From: Sulfobacillus benefaciens
GTDB lineage: Bacteria; Bacillota; Sulfobacillia; Sulfobacillales; Sulfobacillaceae
Reading direction: 5' to 3'
Assembly (NCBI GenBank): GCA_003023725.1
Contig: PXYT01000050.1
Coordinates: 1 to 34,874, forward strand
DNA length: 34,874 nt
Position 1 is the first letter of the stretch. Each line of letters begins with the position of its first letter. The notes beneath the pieces are model-generated. The model made no database searches. It was not told the origin of the DNA and was given only the letters and a program-made list of their open reading frames with translations. Positions 5,168-34,874 of this stretch are shown here, in pieces. The translations under genes were made by a program, and so were the position numbers.

Positions 5168-5734
5168 GTGGCGGATATTGTAGGAGTCAATCGAACGTCA
5201 GGGGGTTACCAGGAAAAGAGGGTTCCCTACGATGCACCGGACGCGGTTCTGGAACTAAGCGCCGCTCTTAAATGGCTGTGGCGTCGTGAAGGTTTGCCGG
5301 AAACGGTGCTGTGTATCGGCACAGACAGGTCCACCGGAGATGCCTTGGGGCCGGTCGTAGGGAGCACTTTGAGTCAGCGGCGACTGGGTCCTATTCGGGT
5401 GTTGGGAACTTTGGAGGACCCGGTCCACGCAGCCAATCTTGGTGATTATATACGATCTTTTCCGGCCTTGCTAACAACTCGTGTATTCGCCATTGACGCT
5501 TCTTTAGGACGGTTGCCGGACGTAGGAATGGTAACCGCGGCACTTGGCCCGTTGAAGCCGGGTGCAGGGGTTAATAAACAGTTGCCGGCGTTGGGCCGTT
5601 ATCATTTGACCGGTACAGTCAATGTGGGAGGATTCATGGAGTTCTTTGTGTTACAGAACACACGTCTTAACGTGGTAATGAAAATGGCCTCCTGTATCTC
5701 GGAGGCCTTCATTCAAAGTTTGGGTCTAAGTTAA
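5168..5734 (+). CDS. yyaC: Spore protease YyaC-like protein
   Basis: A 188-residue protein of the YyaC family, related to the germination protease GPR and found in endospore formers near the origin. The signature CIGTDRSTGDALGP spans about 49-62. AIDASLGRLPDVG and the Gly-rich TGTVNVGGFMEFF follow. The GTG start has GGGGGGAG just upstream. It is the only rightward gene among leftward neighbours. Its stop TAA (5732-5734) overlaps the stop of the opposing DUF4446 gene, leaving no room for a separate terminator. Its presence supports a spore-forming host. Confidence 0.9.
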   Translation: MADIVGVNRTSGGYQEKRVPYDAPDAVLELSAALKWLWRREGLPETVLCIGTDRSTGDALGPVVGSTLSQRRLGPIRVLGTLEDPVHAANLGDYIRSFPALLTTRVFAIDASLGRLPDVGMVTAALGPLKPGAGVNKQLPALGRYHLTGTVNVGGFMEFFVLQNTRLNVVMKMASCISEAFIQSLGLS

Positions 5735-25124: not shown

Positions 25125-25200
<76 letters not shown>

Positions 25201-25215
25201 CCAAAAAACCTGATA

Positions 25216-25238: not shown

Positions 25239-25388
25239 ATTTTGCGCGTTGGCCCTCCATTTCCCCGATCATCCACAATTCCATCCACATGAGCGGGGAT
25301 AACGGCAGAAACGACAGACCATTCTTGAGGACGCGAGTTACGCGCCAGGAGTCACCTGAATTGTCCCGGTCTGCGCATAAAGGGGTTA

Positions 25389-25429
25389 GAGTGAATGACG
25401 CTTACTCACTCCAACCCTGCATAGGTTGG
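25389..25429. repeat. Two abutting hairpins near the 3' end of the XRE relic
   Basis: GAGTGA (25389-25394) pairs with TCACTC (25406-25411); CCAACC (25411-25416) pairs with GGTTGG (25424-25429). The two stems share one base. They lie just past the leftward XRE-type gene and could act as its terminator on the minus strand, though no T-tract follows. The region 25239-25442 otherwise shows nothing recognisable and holds no integrase. Confidence 0.4.
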
Positions 25430-25442
25430 TCGAACACAGGAC

Positions 25443-26167
25443 TTAAGGGCCGGGCTTGCTCCATGCTTCGGCAGCCGCCACCAACCCTTGACGAGCCTGA
25501 AAGGGCAGCATCGGCCAGAGTTGAGCCAGGTGGTCCCACAAGATATCAGCCGGCTGAGATGATGTGGGCTCTACTGGTATGGACGTCAGGGCCTCCCATA
25601 ACGGTTGATACCATTCCGATCGGATCCAGCTCGTGTTGAATATAACGATTCGGCCGTAATCGATGCCGCCGCCGGGAGATGATGATAACGACCAGCCCGG
25701 ACATTTAACCATAATAGGCTGCCGAGAAGATCCGGAGACTTGTGGATGGTGCGAACCAAAATATCGGGCGTGGACCAGTGGAGGGCGTGGGCAGCAGCCT
25801 CGGCCCACACCGCCTCGTCGCCCGAAACCGAAACGGATAGGTGGACAAGGGTCCAATCCTGCTTGGCGGAGGAAGGCTCTCGCTCTCCGTCGGTAGGCCA
25901 GGGCGGTAAATCCGCCGTTAGAGCCGCAATCGGCAGAACGGGCACGGGGCAGGCGGCTAGCCAACTTGACAGGGTTTTTGGGGACGGTTGGCGGTCACCT
26001 CGTTCCAACCGGGCCACGTAACTCGCGTTTAAATTTAATTGACGCGATAATTCTTCTCGACCGAGACTGCGACCTAAACGCAATACAGACAAAATCGTGC
26101 CTAATGGCGCTGTGAAGGGGGCTGGGGCCCCCGAATTCCTTTTCTGATTGTCCTCTCGCTCTCGCAT
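25443..26167 (-). pseudogene. XRE-type regulator with apparent frameshift
   Basis: The N-terminal 193-codon frame (26167-25586) has an HTH at about 28-72 (SLGREELSRQLNLNASYVARLERG). It then continues in coding-like sequence to LLGSLLWLNVRAG. From there its residues look random, while the overlapping frame (stop at 25443) becomes protein-like: GIDYGRIVIFNTSWIRSEW, then ILWDHLAQLWPMLPFQARQGL. A -1 shift near 25665-25685 would join them into about 240 residues. It may be a broken repressor, a sequencing error, or a programmed shift; no classic slippery heptamer is seen. AAAGGAG lies 9 bases before the ATG. It is divergent from the xis-like gene. Confidence 0.65.
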
Positions 26168-26200
26168 AGTGTAAAACTCCTTTCTTTAATAGAGAATTTT

Positions 26201-26253
26201 ACCACGAAAGACCACGAAAGACCATTGACTTTTATCTACGAGGTCGCTACTAT
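26201..26253 (+). promoter_or_regulatory. Promoter with tandem operator-like repeats for the xis-helicase unit
   Basis: TTGACT (26225-26230), a 17-base spacer and TACTAT (26248-26253) make a good promoter for the gene at 26303. Just upstream ACCACGAAAG occurs twice in tandem (26201-26220) and ACCA begins a third unit at 26221. Direct repeats between two divergent genes, one an HTH regulator, suggest a repressor site. This is inference. Confidence 0.65.
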
Positions 26254-26302
26254 GCTTATATAGACCAATGACAACCATGGTCACGGGAGGTGAAATAAGA
26301 CC

Positions 26303-26685: not shown

Positions 26686-28278
26686 ATGAGCGACATTCCA
26701 GAAAAAAACACCCCCGTGCAAGCGGAGGCGGAAGTGGGTCAGAATAGTAATTCAACTATTGATATTACAGCACACTTACGACAAAAACGCAAGCCGGCGG
26801 AGGCGGCAGAACCTTCCATGTGGACAGACGATTGGACTGCGTGGTTTGTTCGGAAGTGGTTCGCTACACTAACTCGGGCGGTGGGTGATAAAAAACTTGG
26901 TGCCAGCGACAGCACGCTTTGGGCTGGCGTGCTCTATGAAGAACTAACGTTGGGGTGGTACCATGATGATCTCTATGGTTTGCGTTCTCGCAGTGATCCG
27001 TTATTTCAGCCCGTTAAAACGGATGTGGAGCGGTTGATTCAATCGATAGCCAACGAGCTCCGTAATCACGGTGTGACTGTCGAAAAATCCGTGACTCGCG
27101 TAGGCGACGTGATGACGGCATTCCGATATGTCTTGCCTCGGCCCAATGATGGGGATTGGATCAATTGGGACCGCGAGCACTGGAATCGGCATCAAGCGAT
27201 TGTGTTTACCAACGGGATATTGGATCTGGAAACGTTGGTGCTTCGCCCGCTGACCGCAGACGACCGCGCAACCTGGCGGATCCCCTACCGCTGGATGGGT
27301 GACCAACCCTTGCCCCCGAAATCGATCAGGTTTTGGTTGACACACTTTCAAAACTTGTTCGGGAAAGACAAGGAAGCCCGGCCAAAAACGCAAGCAGTAC
27401 TGGTGCGGTCGGCGGTGGCTTTAACCCCTTGGATTCGTGGGGCGCAGTGGCAGAAAGCTCTGCTGCTGATCGGCTCGGGGCAAAACGGGAAGGGTACCTG
27501 GATCCGGCTTTGGATGCACATCCTGGGACCCCTGCTGCAATCGGTATCTCTATCGGGATACGATGACCATAACCGATTCGGGCTCTCCAATTTGCGGCCA
27601 GACACCCTTGTGGTGGTGAGCCCTGATATGGACGAAAATGTAAAACTTCGGGGCACGGAACGGTTCAAAAAGCTCACGGGGGATGATGCCATCGATTGGG
27701 AACGCAAAAATCGCGACATCATCACCACGCAGTTTCAGGCGAGGGTCTGGATGGCCGGGCCGGTGGTGCCCAAAGTCGCCGACCGCAGTCAGGGAATGTT
27801 CCGTCGACTCAGTGATACGATCATTATGTTTGATCAGAAACAACCTGAGAACGCAGGGTATGAGGATCAGATGAAAACCACGGACAACATCGAAACGTTG
27901 CTGGTGATTGCCGTCACGGCGTTGCACCGGGTAATCACCGGACAGCAGGACATGCCCGTTCCGGCATCGGCCGGCGAGGCATTACAGGAATATCGCCGCC
28001 AGATCGATCTGTGGGAGCAGTGGTTCGACCCAGACGATGGATGGCTAGAGTTGGATCCGAACGGATGGGTCGCAACCCCCCGGCTCTACCAAGTGTACCA
28101 GCACTGGTACCAGAACTGGACCGGAAAGAAGTATCCCGAGTACATGTCGCGCACAACATTCGGGAAAAAATTCACGGAACATCTCGGTCCCAGGGTGGGC
28201 CGTGGAACCAGCAGCACGAAAGGCTACGCGGGAGTTGCCGTCAAATTCGAATGGGATCGGATGTTTGATGAAGGCTGA
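26686..28278 (+). CDS. Phage/plasmid D5-type SF3 helicase (replication protein)
   Basis: A 530-residue replication protein. The middle (about 100-240) resembles the D5_N domain. The SF3 helicase has Walker A GSGQNGKGT (about 262-270), Walker B LVVVSPDMDEN and the motif RFKKLTGDDAIDWERKN. The usual Asn of motif C before the proline appears replaced: MAGPVVPKVAD, then MFRRLSDTIIMF with the arginine finger region. No primase catalytic motif is evident at the N-terminus, so it may need another primase. AGGAGG precedes the ATG. The order HTH - helicase - repeat region resembles satellite or plasmid replication modules. Confidence 0.85.
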   Translation: MSDIPEKNTPVQAEAEVGQNSNSTIDITAHLRQKRKPAEAAEPSMWTDDWTAWFVRKWFATLTRAVGDKKLGASDSTLWAGVLYEELTLGWYHDDLYGLRSRSDPLFQPVKTDVERLIQSIANELRNHGVTVEKSVTRVGDVMTAFRYVLPRPNDGDWINWDREHWNRHQAIVFTNGILDLETLVLRPLTADDRATWRIPYRWMGDQPLPPKSIRFWLTHFQNLFGKDKEARPKTQAVLVRSAVALTPWIRGAQWQKALLLIGSGQNGKGTWIRLWMHILGPLLQSVSLSGYDDHNRFGLSNLRPDTLVVVSPDMDENVKLRGTERFKKLTGDDAIDWERKNRDIITTQFQARVWMAGPVVPKVADRSQGMFRRLSDTIIMFDQKQPENAGYEDQMKTTDNIETLLVIAVTALHRVITGQQDMPVPASAGEALQEYRRQIDLWEQWFDPDDGWLELDPNGWVATPRLYQVYQHWYQNWTGKKYPEYMSRTTFGKKFTEHLGPRVGRGTSSTKGYAGVAVKFEWDRMFDEG

Positions 28279-28706: not shown

Positions 28707-29877
28707 TAAGAGACGTTTGAGGGGTCGAAGACGGGTGTCAAGCGCGCAAAGAAGACAAATCACGGCGTGGGTCCGCGATCTCTGAGTGCATAACATTTCC
28801 GAATTTAAGAATAATAGTGCGAATCAGGAGGCCGAAGCGTTGTTTCCGGGTCTATTCCATGCGGACTGACTCATGCAGAACCCCATGACTTGGTCTCACC
28901 CGTCACACCTGTGGTAAAGAGAAGAATTCTGTACAATGAGACATAACCTTCAGCGCATTTTTCTTATTCCCCTGTTGGCGTCTTGTCGTAGCGATTGCCT
29001 GATATTGTGTCCGTGAGCTCGCTTTACTTCAAGACTTCCCAGGTTCACTCGATGTTTGCCATCACTGCCAGGGAGCCTCCCGCTATATATTGAATACTGG
29101 TGCCCAGCCCGGGGCTCAAGGAGTAAGTTTCTCGAGTTGACGCAAGCACTCCGCTGAGCCTATTCCTATATACATGGCGGAATTGCTTCACTGGCTGGGC
29201 GCGAGGATTTTGGACACCGGCAGCAACGGTCCACCGTTTCCAAACCTATGAGGGATGGTTAACGCATCCATCGGACAGGCTGTCGACCGTCGTGAGACGG
29301 AAAAAGGTCACCGCCGGCTTAGGCCATCTCAAATTTGTGGGAGAAGGCATTGTAACATCTCCTATTTGCATTAGAATTATCCTAAGTCCATAACCAAAGA
29401 CACACCATAGAGAGGCAAGAAGTGAACAGCCCGTCATTTTTGGACGGCGGGAAATATTCCTGGTCTCAGGTGGCGGATTTTTATTTTGATACTGTGTCGA
29501 GTGAACAACGCCTCATACATGGACACCATTTGACGTAAACACCCTGTACACTCGGGGTGATAGGCTAACTTAATCACTCGGCTTGAAACTGTTGAAAAGC
29601 GAGTCAAAGAGACCGGGGCAACGATTCAACCATTTATCCCAATGGGGAGGGAGCCATTGTTCTCGTCAGGATCGACTCTTGATGCCATTGATTGTTGCCG
29701 ATAACTTTTGGACAACCCTGCTCGACTGCTTTACCGCATAGGGCGAGCAGGTTGCCAAGAAGGGAGGGGATTGGTGGTTTGTTAAGCGTGTAGTCCTCTC
29801 GTGTGAAGAGGAGTTCGAAAATTTTTCGATCAAAGGGAATCATTATCACGAATTTGCTATATAATAGGGGTAAAAGT
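28707..29877. other. About 1.2 kb with no convincing gene; coding scraps
   Basis: No intact gene is supported. Short coding-like pieces on the plus strand are: 29174-29251 (MAELLHWLGARILDTGSNG...), 29422-29538 (GTG start, NSPSFLDGGKYSWSQVADF, with AGAGG upstream), and an open stretch at about 29566-29703 (RLETVEKRVKETGATIQPF). They lie in different frames and look like remains of decayed genes; no family is recognised. The end holds the toxin promoter, with a TATAAT at 29860-29865 and a poor -35. Confidence 0.5.
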
Positions 29878-30243
29878 ATGAGGCGGGCAGCTACGCAATT
29901 CTTCGTGTTGGAGGCTTTTAAAAAAGCGACGCGGAAGCTAAAGCCTCCAGGACAAGAAAAGGTCTTGATGTCTGTGAGGCAATTTCAAGAGGAATGGAAA
30001 CAGAGCGAGTACGATGCGGACCTTTCGCCAGGGTATGATCTTCAACCTCTAGAGCACCGAGCGGGACAATATCGCGTGGTTGAGATACGCGCAGGGCGTG
30101 ATTGGCGGGTGGCCCTGATGATTTGGAATGATGTCTCTCAAGCATATTGGCTTCACACTTGGCGAAAGAGTGGCCGGAGAAATCCCCAAGACTATGATAC
30201 GGCCAGAGAACGAGCGAAAAGGCTTTGGCAACGGAAGGGGTAG
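29878..30243 (+). CDS. RelE/HigB-superfamily toxin
   Basis: A 121-residue basic protein. The C-terminal half carries the HigB/Gp49-like pattern: YRVVEIRAGRDWRVALMIW, then YWLHTWRKSGRRNPQDYDTARERAKRLW. Toxins of this type cleave mRNA on ribosomes. The ATG at 29878 is chosen because AGGGGT and a TATAAT lie just upstream; the frame stays open to 29803. It is followed 5 bases later by an XRE protein, the toxin-first order of higBA. Length is slightly above the usual 90-115. Confidence 0.82.
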   Translation: MRRAATQFFVLEAFKKATRKLKPPGQEKVLMSVRQFQEEWKQSEYDADLSPGYDLQPLEHRAGQYRVVEIRAGRDWRVALMIWNDVSQAYWLHTWRKSGRRNPQDYDTARERAKRLWQRKG

Positions 30244-30248
30244 AAACG

Positions 30249-30683
30249 ATGGACGACGACATTCGTGTGAGTAGCCAATCGGTGGAAGATTTGTTACGCG
30301 ATACGTTAATGCATCACGAAGAGACTTGGCCGGATGCCTTAAAGGATCAATTTCTGATGGATACCATGATTGAACTTTTTAAGGCTCGGCGACGAGCAGG
30401 ATGGACGCAGGATCAAGTAGCCCAAGCTATAGGGACCACGCAATCTGCCATAGCACGATGGGAAAAGGATTTTGAGGGGAAAATTTCATTACACCGTCTC
30501 GCGGATTTTGCTTTGGCGTGCGGAATGGTCCCGAAGATACAGTTTGAGAGTATCGATGTGGCTAAACAGCGGATGGCGTTTTTTGACAATGTCTCGACAG
30601 ACCCTAACGTGGTAAATTTTCCAGGTCACGATTCATCGACGACCGTTTCGAACAATTTTGCTAACGTCAACTTGGCTGGATGA
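30249..30683 (+). CDS. XRE-family antitoxin with C-terminal tail
   Basis: A 144-residue HTH protein. Residues about 40-90 hold the XRE domain (RRRAGWTQDQVAQAIGTTQSAIARWEKD) after an N-terminal helical part. Beyond the HTH a 44-residue tail (101-144) contains MAFFDNVSTDPNVVNFPGH and ends in a low-complexity Asn/Val stretch. HigA-type antitoxins neutralise the toxin and repress the operon. GGAAGGGG precedes the ATG at 30249. The third gene begins 3 bases after its stop. The tail is longer than in minimal HigA proteins. Confidence 0.85.
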   Translation: MDDDIRVSSQSVEDLLRDTLMHHEETWPDALKDQFLMDTMIELFKARRRAGWTQDQVAQAIGTTQSAIARWEKDFEGKISLHRLADFALACGMVPKIQFESIDVAKQRMAFFDNVSTDPNVVNFPGHDSSTTVSNNFANVNLAG

Positions 30684-32801: not shown

Positions 32802-33278
32802 TCACGATCCCACGGAGGGAGAGTGAGAGGAGTCGTGAATGGTTGACGGGATTTGAGCCGACGGATGGGGCGTGAGAGTTTGTTTTATTTCATCGACGAT
32901 TTCATCGGAGGTCTTGTGTTGTTTCTCATATTTTAGACCGGTGATGGCGGCAATGACGAAGAATGTTAGGGTCAGGGTCACAAAGACCCCTCGCGTGAAA
33001 GCGGGCATAGATGTGGTACACAAGGCCCCGAAGAGAGAAACAGCCATACCGGCGGCGGTCGAGGCCCAGGTTAGATTTAAGTCGCCAGCATGCCACGTGT
33101 CCAACTTATGACGCAACGTATCTTCGGGAACAACAAAATGGTTGATTTCGGGTGGGGCCCATAACACGGTGTGCATATAGTGCGAAGAAGCGGGAGACGT
33201 GGAGTCCACGGCGACCGGTTCTGCTGGATTGGACGATCCGAGTGTGATTGAGGCGTTGTCTTCCGATTTATCCGTCAT
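32802..33278 (-). CDS. Small membrane protein of unknown function
   Basis: A 158-residue protein. The Ser/Thr-rich N-terminus is followed by NHFVVPEDTLRHKLDTWHAGDLNLTW. Two hydrophobic helices then lie near 77-97 (ASTAAGMAVSLFGALC) and 104-124 (GVFVTLTLTFFVIAAITGL), with a charged C-terminal tail. The ATG at 33278 is chosen because it overlaps the end of the zinc-ribbon gene by only 11 bases; its ribosome site is weak, fitting translational coupling. The frame stays open to 33383. No family is recognised. It is probably under the operator at 33637. Confidence 0.6.
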   Translation of the reverse strand: MTDKSEDNASITLGSSNPAEPVAVDSTSPASSHYMHTVLWAPPEINHFVVPEDTLRHKLDTWHAGDLNLTWASTAAGMAVSLFGALCTTSMPAFTRGVFVTLTLTFFVIAAITGLKYEKQHKTSDEIVDEIKQTLTPHPSAQIPSTIHDSSHSPSVGS

Positions 33279-33588
33279 GAGTTTGCGAAAGAGAAGATGT
33301 TGCCGATGCGGGGGTGATTGAGGGCTTGTCATAGGGAAAATCCGGATCCAACACCCGGGCGGCAATTTGCGCCGTCCATCCACAATGTGTGCAGGTTAAC
33401 ACGACCAGCGGCAAAGTGGGTCCTCCGAGTCGCACCACATTGGGCTGAAAATCCGGGGAAAAGGCTGGGGTCATCACCCCATTAAGCAAACTAAACTGTT
33501 TATGGCCGCATAACGGACACACTGGACCTCCCGGTTGTGTTTTGTTATTGAGCTGTTGGAGAAGGCGTGACTGCCATTCCGCGTCCAT
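33268..33588 (-). CDS. Small zinc-ribbon protein
   Basis: A 106-residue protein with two CxxC knuckles, Cys24/Cys27 (CPLCG) and Cys66/Cys69 (CTHCG), spaced as in a zinc ribbon, with a conserved-looking LVVLTCTHCGWT strand. Similar small proteins occur in phages and plasmids with unknown roles. GAGGGGG lies about 11 bases before the ATG. A TATAAT at 33633-33628 (minus strand) and an operator-like site just upstream suggest regulation by the XRE protein at 33802. It overlaps the membrane protein gene. Confidence 0.7.
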   Translation of the reverse strand: MDAEWQSRLLQQLNNKTQPGGPVCPLCGHKQFSLLNGVMTPAFSPDFQPNVVRLGGPTLPLVVLTCTHCGWTAQIAARVLDPDFPYDKPSITPASATSSLSQTHDG

Positions 33589-33627
33589 ATGATAGTGTCC
33601 CCCTCTTGTTTAACTGTCTACTACCTT

Positions 33628-33650
33628 ATTATAGTGAACTTTTTAAGATA
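33628..33650 (-). promoter_or_regulatory. Promoter and operator-like site of the zinc-ribbon unit
   Basis: On the minus strand TATAAT (33633-33628) is preceded by a site which on the plus strand reads AACTTTTTAAGATA (33637-33650). It shares TTTTAAGATA with the sites at 34467 and 34557. It would lie between -35 and -10, an ideal place for repression. No good -35 is seen. Confidence 0.55.
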
Positions 33651-33801
33651 AATCCTACCACATTTATTGGTCTTTTTTCCCGCTTCGTGACAATACAAGA
33701 CGGGTGGGGTTTTAGACCCCGCGTTTCCCGACCCACGCATCCAGCCTGCCCGCTCGTTCCAAAACATCCAGCATACGAACCAGAGAACAACCGAGCGTCT
33801 G

Positions 33802-34416
33802 TTACTCCTTTTCTTTTGACGCACGCCCCAACCGACGCACGACATCCTCAACTACGTCCAAGGCGGCATCACTGGCTACAAGAAACCAGTCCACAAGGCC
33901 TTTGCGCTTGGCCCACCGGGCGGTGGCAGCTGAACCATCAATACTGACCGGATAGTGAGACAACATGGTACTCAAGCGATCCGGGATCGGCTCTATAGCG
34001 AACTGCAAGACGTCTGCAAGATATTGTTGGGCGGCCGGTGACCATTTTGAATAGTCCTTCCCAGATTCCCCGAACATTTGTGCCAGTGCGAATATTGCCT
34101 CGGCAATGTCGGTCGGGGGGTCGGCGGAGTTGCCGCGGGATGGGATGGGGACATCGAGAAAAAATTCTATGGGGAGCCCAATCACAAACGATAATTTCTT
34201 TAAATTTTCGGGACTAGGCATAATCACCCCCTGCTCCCAATGATAGTAACTGCCGATCTGAACGCCCAGGGCGTCTGCGATTTGCCGGGCATTGAGTCCT
34301 CGAGCGCGGCGGGATTGGCGGATTCGAGATCCGAATGCTTTGGCGGCCGATGTAGACGCGGCGGGCATAAGAGAGCGAATTTCGTCATTCGTTAACAATG
34401 TTAAGACCTTCTTCAC
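33802..34416 (-). CDS. XRE-family transcriptional regulator (repressor-like)
   Basis: A 204-residue protein with an HTH_3 domain at about 29-82 (RIRQSRRARGLNARQIADALGVQIGSYYHWEQG). A helical C-terminal domain follows, including DVLQFAIEPIPDRLSTML and the basic end. No peptidase (LexA-like Ser/Lys) motif is evident, so it is not a typical self-cleaving repressor. GTG at 34416 is the only start that keeps the full leader; it has a poor ribosome site, and an ATG at 34368 is the alternative. The neighbouring DNA holds four similar 14-bp sites, suggesting autoregulation and control of both flanking units. Confidence 0.78.
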   Translation of the reverse strand: MKKVLTLLTNDEIRSLMPAASTSAAKAFGSRIRQSRRARGLNARQIADALGVQIGSYYHWEQGVIMPSPENLKKLSFVIGLPIEFFLDVPIPSRGNSADPPTDIAEAIFALAQMFGESGKDYSKWSPAAQQYLADVLQFAIEPIPDRLSTMLSHYPVSIDGSAATARWAKRKGLVDWFLVASDAALDVVEDVVRRLGRASKEKE

Positions 34417-34427
34417 TGCAATCTAAC

Positions 34428-34441
34428 TATCTAATAAGATA
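34428..34441. promoter_or_regulatory. Operator-like site next to the XRE start
   Basis: TATCTAATAAGATA, an inverted repeat with 5-bp arms, 12 bases upstream of the XRE gene start. It matches TATCTTTTAAGATA at 34467 in 12 of 14 positions. It would allow autorepression. Confidence 0.6.
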
Positions 34442-34450
34442 ACATAGTGA

Positions 34451-34481
34451 TTGACACGTTGTATAGTATCTTTTAAGATAC
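34451..34481 (+). promoter_or_regulatory. Rightward promoter overlapped by a near-perfect operator
   Basis: TTGACA (34451-34456), a 17-base spacer, TAAGAT (34474-34479). The -10 is embedded in GTATCTTTTAAGATAC (34466-34481), a 7-bp inverted repeat around TT. A bound repressor would block this promoter. It would drive the gene at 34602. Confidence 0.7.
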
Positions 34482-34556
34482 TCATATGCGTGGAATCAGT
34501 AATGGCTTGAAATATTTTACTAGGGAGATATGAAAGTAGCTTTACAGATACCATAA

Positions 34557-34570
34557 CATCGTTTAAGATA
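34557..34570. promoter_or_regulatory. Third operator-like site in the divergent region
   Basis: CATCGTTTAAGATA, sharing ATC and TTTAAGATA with the site at 34467. It lies 31 bases before the start of the rightward gene, within its leader. Confidence 0.5.
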
Positions 34571-34601
34571 TATAAGAGCAAGGAGAAAAGGAGGTATGAA
34601 G

Positions 34602-34874
34602 ATGTCGTCAGGCCTTCCGGGGAAGATAGAGGAATTGTTCGAAAAGTCGAAACCGAAGACGAAGATGGGACGACCAATGAATCCGAGCGCGGAACGCTAC
34701 GCGACACTGTATGTGCGTCTTTGGCGGGCAGCACACGGGGAGAATCCGGAGGACTGGGAGGCGGGCTGGACTCACTGGTTCCCGGCGCCGGATGACATGT
34801 TGGAACGCGACATCTGCTACGTTGCAGCTGCGCTGGCTGATCATTTGTGGGCCCCGGTACCGCGACCACCGCGG
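34602..34874 (+). CDS. Unknown protein, cut by the window end
   Basis: Open to the last base (91 codons seen). It begins MSSGLPGKIEELFEKSKPK, then a basic GRPMNPSAERYATLYVRLW and a Trp-rich acidic middle (EDWEAGWTHWFPAPDDM). No family is recognised. ATG at 34602 is preferred because GGAGGT lies 6 bases before it; an in-frame ATG at 34596 abuts that site and is less likely. The basic opening may bind nucleic acid. It is driven by the operator-controlled promoter at 34451, hence probably an early gene of the element. Confidence 0.65.
   Translation, partial: MSSGLPGKIEELFEKSKPKTKMGRPMNPSAERYATLYVRLWRAAHGENPEDWEAGWTHWFPAPDDMLERDICYVAAALADHLWAPVPRPPR

Follow-up and report, generated by a model that had tools for sequence, protein, structure and literature searches.

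A probable repressor switch with clustered operator-like dyads in an integrative element of Sulfobacillus benefaciens

Genes and Features of the Locus

The window, which is the whole contig of 34,874 bases analysed here, belongs to the 4.56-Mb genome of Sulfobacillus benefaciens, and its features are listed in Table 1. Homology of the serS-tRNA region stopped at 25200, the last base of tRNA-Arg, in four of seven congeners and at 25211, 25219, and 25246 in the other three. The tRNA gene was followed by a second XRE gene, an AlpA-like gene (HTH_17 4e-5, below the cut-off), and a P4-type primase gene. The end of homology near the 3' end of tRNA-Arg and the P4-type primase located the region in an integrative element. 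Neither an integrase nor the right end of the element was seen within the window, which stops at the contig end. Near that end, the XRE gene P0001 and the rightward gene P0004 are separated by a 179-bp gap (34417-34595), and the zinc-ribbon unit lies on the other side of P0001.

Table 1. Coordinates of the features in the window
Feature	Position	Strand	Description
tRNA-Arg(ACG)	25125..25200	+	left junction of the element
P4-family primase/helicase-like gene	26686..28278	+	TIGR01613 E 4.3e-30, 104.6 bits against a cut-off of 108.7; DUF5906 4.5e-13
P0003, small putative membrane protein	32802..33278	-	ATG at 33278; overlaps the end of P0002; membrane assignment by eye
P0002, zinc-ribbon-like small protein	33268..33588	-	first gene of the neighbouring unit; Pfam zinc-ribbon matches below cut-off
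Weak site AACTTTTTAAGATA	33637..33650		in the zinc-ribbon promoter; 3 mismatches; doubtful operator
P0001, XRE/Cro-CI type regulator	33802..34416	-	204 aa, GTG start assumed; N-terminal HTH at residues 27-90, helical C-terminus
O1 TATCTAATAAGATA	34428..34441		exact dyad arms (0 mismatches to TATCT-N4-AGATA); 12 bp from the repressor GTG (34416)
Promoter-like P1	34451..34479	+	TTGACA-17-TAAGAT; consensus match only; -10 inside O2
O2 TATCTTTTAAGATA	34467..34480		0 mismatches to TATCT-N4-AGATA; core of the 18-bp dyad AGTATCTTTTAAGATACT; overlaps the -10 of rightward promoter-like P1
O3 TTACTAGGGAGATA	34517..34530		2 mismatches to TATCT-N4-AGATA
O4 TAGCTTTACAGATA	34537..34550		1 mismatch to TATCT-N4-AGATA
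Promoter-like P2	34541..34569	+	TTTACA-17-TAAGAT; consensus match only; -10 inside O5
O5 CATCGTTTAAGATA	34557..34570		2 mismatches to TATCT-N4-AGATA; overlaps the -10 of promoter-like P2
P0004, rightward gene	34596..34874	+	first 93 codons; truncated where the contig stops

The Regulator P0001 and Its Homologues

P0001 matched HTH_3 (PF01381) with 40.4 bits against a cut-off of 23 (E 3.1e-10), which identified it as a regulator with a Cro/CI (XRE) HTH. Outside the HTH no Pfam match was obtained, including none to the C-terminal S24 peptidase domain of lambda-type CI and LexA-like proteins. In the AF2 model (mean pLDDT 58) the HTH helices were confident and the rest was not; the C-terminal part was discarded as too poor to use. 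Foldseek gave no match at E<=0.001, and the PDB search with P0001 gave matches to the HTH part only. No clear ribosome-binding site was seen by eye at the GTG.

A single-sequence scan found no close relatives of P0001 in the genome contigs or the viral contigs. The alignment search found six loci in the genome contigs, among which L083 (G025) alone aligned along most of P0001 (residues 23-198), four loci in the viral contigs with HTH-only matches, one HTH-level match in plasmids, and none in phages. At 1e-12 the family profile matched 6 of the 154 genomes of the class, its own included. Among the five others, full-length matches came from G025 and G035 only, whose homologues were themselves rows of the profile; in G049, G068, and G095 the match covered the HTH part only. 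Identity to P0001 over the protein was 31% in G035 and 29% in G025. A C-terminal remnant in G009 was 71% identical over 34 residues. A tRNA gene adjoined the homologue (G025, G035) or the remnant (G009).

The P0001-like regulators of G025 and G035 lie in tRNA-linked elements and, as in the window, face a divergent gene across palindromes. That gene is a small AlpA/excisionase-like one by eye, unlike P0004, and the regulator is within about 130 bp of the tRNA, against a distance of 8.6 kb between P0001 and tRNA-Arg. In G035 this arrangement is followed by a gene that looks replication-like by eye and by ORFs that look integrase-like. The operator word also differs, being the 13-mer TGCTTGAAAAGCA (taken from G035) instead of TATCT-N4-AGATA. 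With up to 2 mismatches allowed, this 13-mer matched only twice across 17,001 bases of G035, each time within the divergent gap, and only once across 16,000 bases of G025, where the match again lay in the gap preceding the homologue. These matches lend support, independently of the window, to the view that regulators of this type act through dyads in the gap that separates them from the divergent gene, with operator words changing as the HTH does.

A Cluster of Operator-Like Dyads

Candidate dyads were scored at the 10 positions of TATCT-N4-AGATA, with up to 2 mismatches allowed. Five dyads (O1 to O5) were found in the 179-bp gap between P0001 and P0004, a number attained in none of 5000 dinucleotide shuffles of that gap. 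O3, O4, and O5 follow each other at exact 20-bp steps; none of 5000 shuffles reproduced this, in a test made after the step had been seen. The spacing from O1 to O5 was 39, 50, 20, and 20, and the array was AT-rich (32% GC). A repeat finder that was run blind returned an 18-nt repeat family of five copies with a spacing of 791, 39, 70, and 20.

The earlier note had listed TATCTTTTAAGATA-like sites at 33637, 34428, 34467, and 34557. All four were present, but they were unequal, with 3, 2, 0, and 2 mismatches to TATCTTTTAAGATA, respectively. With up to 3 mismatches the gap held four non-overlapping TATCTTTTAAGATA sites, and none of 2000 dinucleotide shuffles attained three; the whole window gave 10 strand-matches against 2.33 expected, and none of 100 shuffles attained 10. 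When the near-palindromic seed word was chosen anew for each of 400 shuffles, the best count was 2 against the 5 observed, with both gaps pooled. The earlier observation was confirmed, with corrections. O3 and O4 were absent from the earlier list, and 33637 had been given too much weight: the 33589-33801 gap contained one TATCTTTTAAGATA site, and 56 of 2000 dinucleotide shuffles of that gap gave one as good. The O1-O5 cluster is real, strongly non-random, and operator-like.

O2 overlaps the -10 of a rightward promoter, a call made by consensus match, and O1 lies 12 bases from the repressor start; both placements agree with the earlier description. The promoter scan returned three promoter-like sites where shuffles gave 1.5, which makes the calls of P1 and P2 only suggestive. 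The operators overlap rightward promoter-like sequences, and the leftward promoter of the repressor has no clear candidate, since no good -35/-10 pair was found for it and the best leftward match was 8/12.

In the leader of P0004 (34486-34556), two tiny ORFs of 15 and 8 codons that overlap at ATGA were noticed by eye. The first starts where a transcript from P1 would begin, which may be chance.

Distribution of the Sites in the Genome

The exact dyad TATCT-N4-AGATA was found at three places in 4.56 Mb: O1 and O2, which are 39 bp apart, and one place inside gyrB. With up to 1 mismatch there were 68 places against 56 in the control, a small excess. The earlier note had proposed that a genome scan for the 14-mer would define a regulon. 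With up to 2 mismatches, however, TATCTTTTAAGATA gave 13 forward matches against 12 for the reversed control over the whole genome, which is no enrichment. As the exact dyads were also confined to the gap and gyrB, a genome-wide regulon was rejected. The switch is considered local, because two of the three exact copies in the genome sit in this gap.

The proposal that the XRE protein is the master repressor of the module fared no better. In the element part of the window there was no further site with up to 3 mismatches, and in particular none upstream of the primase gene, the AlpA-like gene, or the toxin-antitoxin-like pair; the remaining TATCTTTTAAGATA match in the window at this threshold was inside gyrB. 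The second XRE protein of the element, beside the tRNA, is a further point against it.

The Rightward Gene P0004

The remainder of the P0004 gene was not found on other contigs of the genome at E<=1e-5. Homologues, of about 217 aa and without a known domain, occurred in two other genomes of 154, at three loci (twice in G031, as near copies, and once in G021). No member of the family was found in plasmids, phages, or viral contigs. A PDB search with P0004 gave nothing convincing, and the structure model was discarded as too poor to use (mean pLDDT 49.7).

At all three loci a divergent HTH gene adjoined the P0004 homologue. The HTH proteins were not homologues of P0001 beyond the HTH fold, and their HTH_31 scores were weak, below the Pfam cut-off. 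As judged from these loci, the position of P0004 next to a divergent regulator is conserved and the regulator is exchanged. One of the G031 loci carried a primase gene like that of the window (68% DNA identity over 1295 bp).

The Proposed Switch

Several palindromic operator-like sites above chance in the gap between a repressor gene and a divergent gene are what a divergent switch carries, and this gap held five dyads that no shuffle attained. The region 34417-34595 is likely to be the control region of an autoregulated P0001 repressor/P0004 early-gene switch of the integrative element. We infer that the TATCT-N4-AGATA dyads are bound by P0001, which probably acts as a dimer or a larger oligomer. 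Its binding would shut off P0004 and damp its own gene, because O2 lies on the rightward -10 and O1 lies between the rightward promoter and the repressor start. O3 to O5, at steps of about two helical turns in the P0004 leader and over P2, may back up repression by side-by-side binding. If the repressor were lost or were inactivated by an inducing signal, P0004 and the genes after it, beyond the contig end, would be switched on. Position is the basis for pairing P0001 with these sites, since no close relative of P0001 was found and the operator word of its homologues is a different one.

Exchange of the regulator ahead of a single conserved gene is well known among temperate elements. A more far-reaching reading, which we hold tentatively and consider rather doubtful, makes P0004 the fixed core of a Sulfobacillus element family with exchanged regulators and a key early protein, with the 20-bp-stepped leader sites as a second target. 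The immunity type would then change and the controlled gene would stay, every copy being paired with a divergent HTH protein and operators of its own. The early role of P0004 would be that of an activator or of a replication or partition adaptor.

Alternative Explanations

The earlier note had the XRE protein control two divergent units. The rightward side, P0004, agrees with the cluster, the promoter overlap, and the homologue layout, while the zinc-ribbon side met a weak site and the evidence from G002. On this evidence, P0001 is unlikely to govern a single regulon in which four operators serve both P0004 and the zinc-ribbon unit. The 33637 site shares the 10-mer TTTTAAGATA with O2, and a 27-bp stretch at 33611-33637 is 74% like 34424-34450. 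As had been stated earlier, the site also lies just beside the zinc-ribbon -10, a perfect TATAAT (33633-33628, minus strand), though the -35 there matches at only 2/6. It shows dyad pairing at 3/7 positions, however, and its three mismatches were equalled in the local shuffles described above. P0002 had matches in 8 and P0003 in 2 of the 154 genomes (own included; E<=0.001 for P0002). The congener G002 carries diverged copies of both together (85% and 81% identity, respectively) with a similar promoter; its P0002 is split over two frames, and its P0003 was matched over 95 of 158 residues. The homologous block corresponds to 32996-33698 of the window and does not extend to the XRE gene. At 1e-12 the search found no member of the P0001 family in G002, nor was a full-length homologue found there; an HTH-level match of 1.3e-4 lies elsewhere in that genome. 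G002 thus shows that the zinc-ribbon unit can occur independently of this regulator. XRE control of the unit is unproven, because the unit and its promoter exist there without a full-length XRE homologue; P0001 control is possible but not supported by these comparisons. Conservation of the promoter in G002 says little, because the whole promoter is about 80% identical. The G002 counterpart of the 33637 stretch is TATCCTAAAAGGTT, within a different palindrome, TAGGATTTATCCTA. This palindrome is perfect in the G002 promoter (L105 2624-2640) and has TAGGATTTATCTTA as its counterpart in the window; a palindrome of this type may be the zinc-ribbon unit's own operator.

It is quite improbable that the repeats are iterons or the centromere of a plasmid-like replicon, bound by the P0004 product or a replication protein, with repression secondary. 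The low GC content of the array and three half-sites at exact 20-bp steps would suit such a function, as would the actin-like (ALP/ParM) and AAA_25 genes adjacent to the P0004 homologue in G021. But the best sites are dyads that coincide with promoter-like sequence next to a gene of repressor type, the spacing from O1 to O5 is non-uniform, and the G031 homologues of P0004 have no adjacent ALP gene in the stretches examined. Nor are the sites likely to be mere -10-like promoter words in AT-rich intergenic DNA, an explanation to which we give very little credence. TAAGAT is the -10 of two predicted promoters, and because the word itself resembles a -10, promoter likeness could account for part of the similarity between sites. 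Conservation extends to the TATCT left arms, however; the best rightward -35 for O1 matches only 4/6, and five dyads did not arise in the shuffles.

Comparison With Known Systems

The P0001/P0004 switch is most likely of an ordinary, known kind, seen here in a mobile element of Sulfobacillus, a group of little-studied bacteria. SaPIs carry a primase. By analogy, the best reading is that the layout would work like SaPI Stl-str or ICEBs1 ImmR-Pxis. As described for SaPI1 (PMC9638917), the stl-str gap contains four near-perfect palindromic operators, two of which (operators 1 and 2) are located at the -35 sites of the two promoters. The window resembles this system in having a putative XRE repressor, candidate palindromic operators in the gap before a presumed early gene, and a chromosomal island. 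In the same description the SaPI1 operators overlap promoter elements of both genes; those of the window overlap promoter-like sequences of the rightward gene. The SaPI1 half-site is TGTACT with a 3-bp spacer against TATCT with a 4-bp spacer in the window. SaPI1 Stl is described as derepressed by the phage protein Sri, of which no counterpart is shown in the window.

For ICEBs1, the account in PMC8960796 has ImmR binding at six sites within the Pxis and PimmR regulatory regions. The window shares several sites and an integrative element with this system, as well as an XRE repressor and counter-transcribed promoters, which in the window are predicted; in ICEBs1 the sites lie in both promoter regions (PMC8960796). 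No Pfam match to an ImmA-type metallopeptidase was found in P0002, P0003, or P0004 beside P0001. Unlike in ICEBs1, no conjugation genes were found among the scanned genes of the window, which are a subset of the ORFs within the contig ends. Foldseek of P0001 against Stl (7dlv_F) gave E 0.17, on a model of the low mean confidence given above. The switch cannot be assigned to SaPI Stl or ICEBs1 ImmR, because there is no ImmA, no S24 domain, and only this match to Stl.

The locus offers a concrete candidate immunity-type switch for Sulfobacillus integrative elements. No account of such a switch in Sulfobacillus was found in the literature searches made, although one may still exist in print. A promoter that can be induced through a defined repressor would be of practical use in Sulfobacillus, and S. 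thermotolerans is called biotechnologically important in PMC6803676.

Further Features of the Element

Beside the tRNA-Arg junction, the second XRE gene faces the AlpA-like gene (25586-26302). The gap between them contains repeated GACCACGAAA words and a TGACAACCATGGTCA dyad, an operator set different from that of P0001. At 29803-30683 lies a possible toxin-antitoxin pair belonging to the element: the second gene encodes an HTH protein, and the product of the first, which has no Pfam match, looks by eye like a RelE/HigB-type toxin.

Two fragments of the tRNA-Arg 3' part were observed on another contig of the same genome (C130, L057) at 2670-2699 and 5621-5662. The roughly 2.9 kb between them contains, as read by eye, an XRE-metallopeptidase-like gene and a PIN-like gene, and the fragments are possibly att remnants of a further or tandem insertion. 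A 177-bp segment of the window (25267-25443) was 92% identical to places in contig C90 of the same genome and in the congener G006, and is a dispersed repeat just inside the element.
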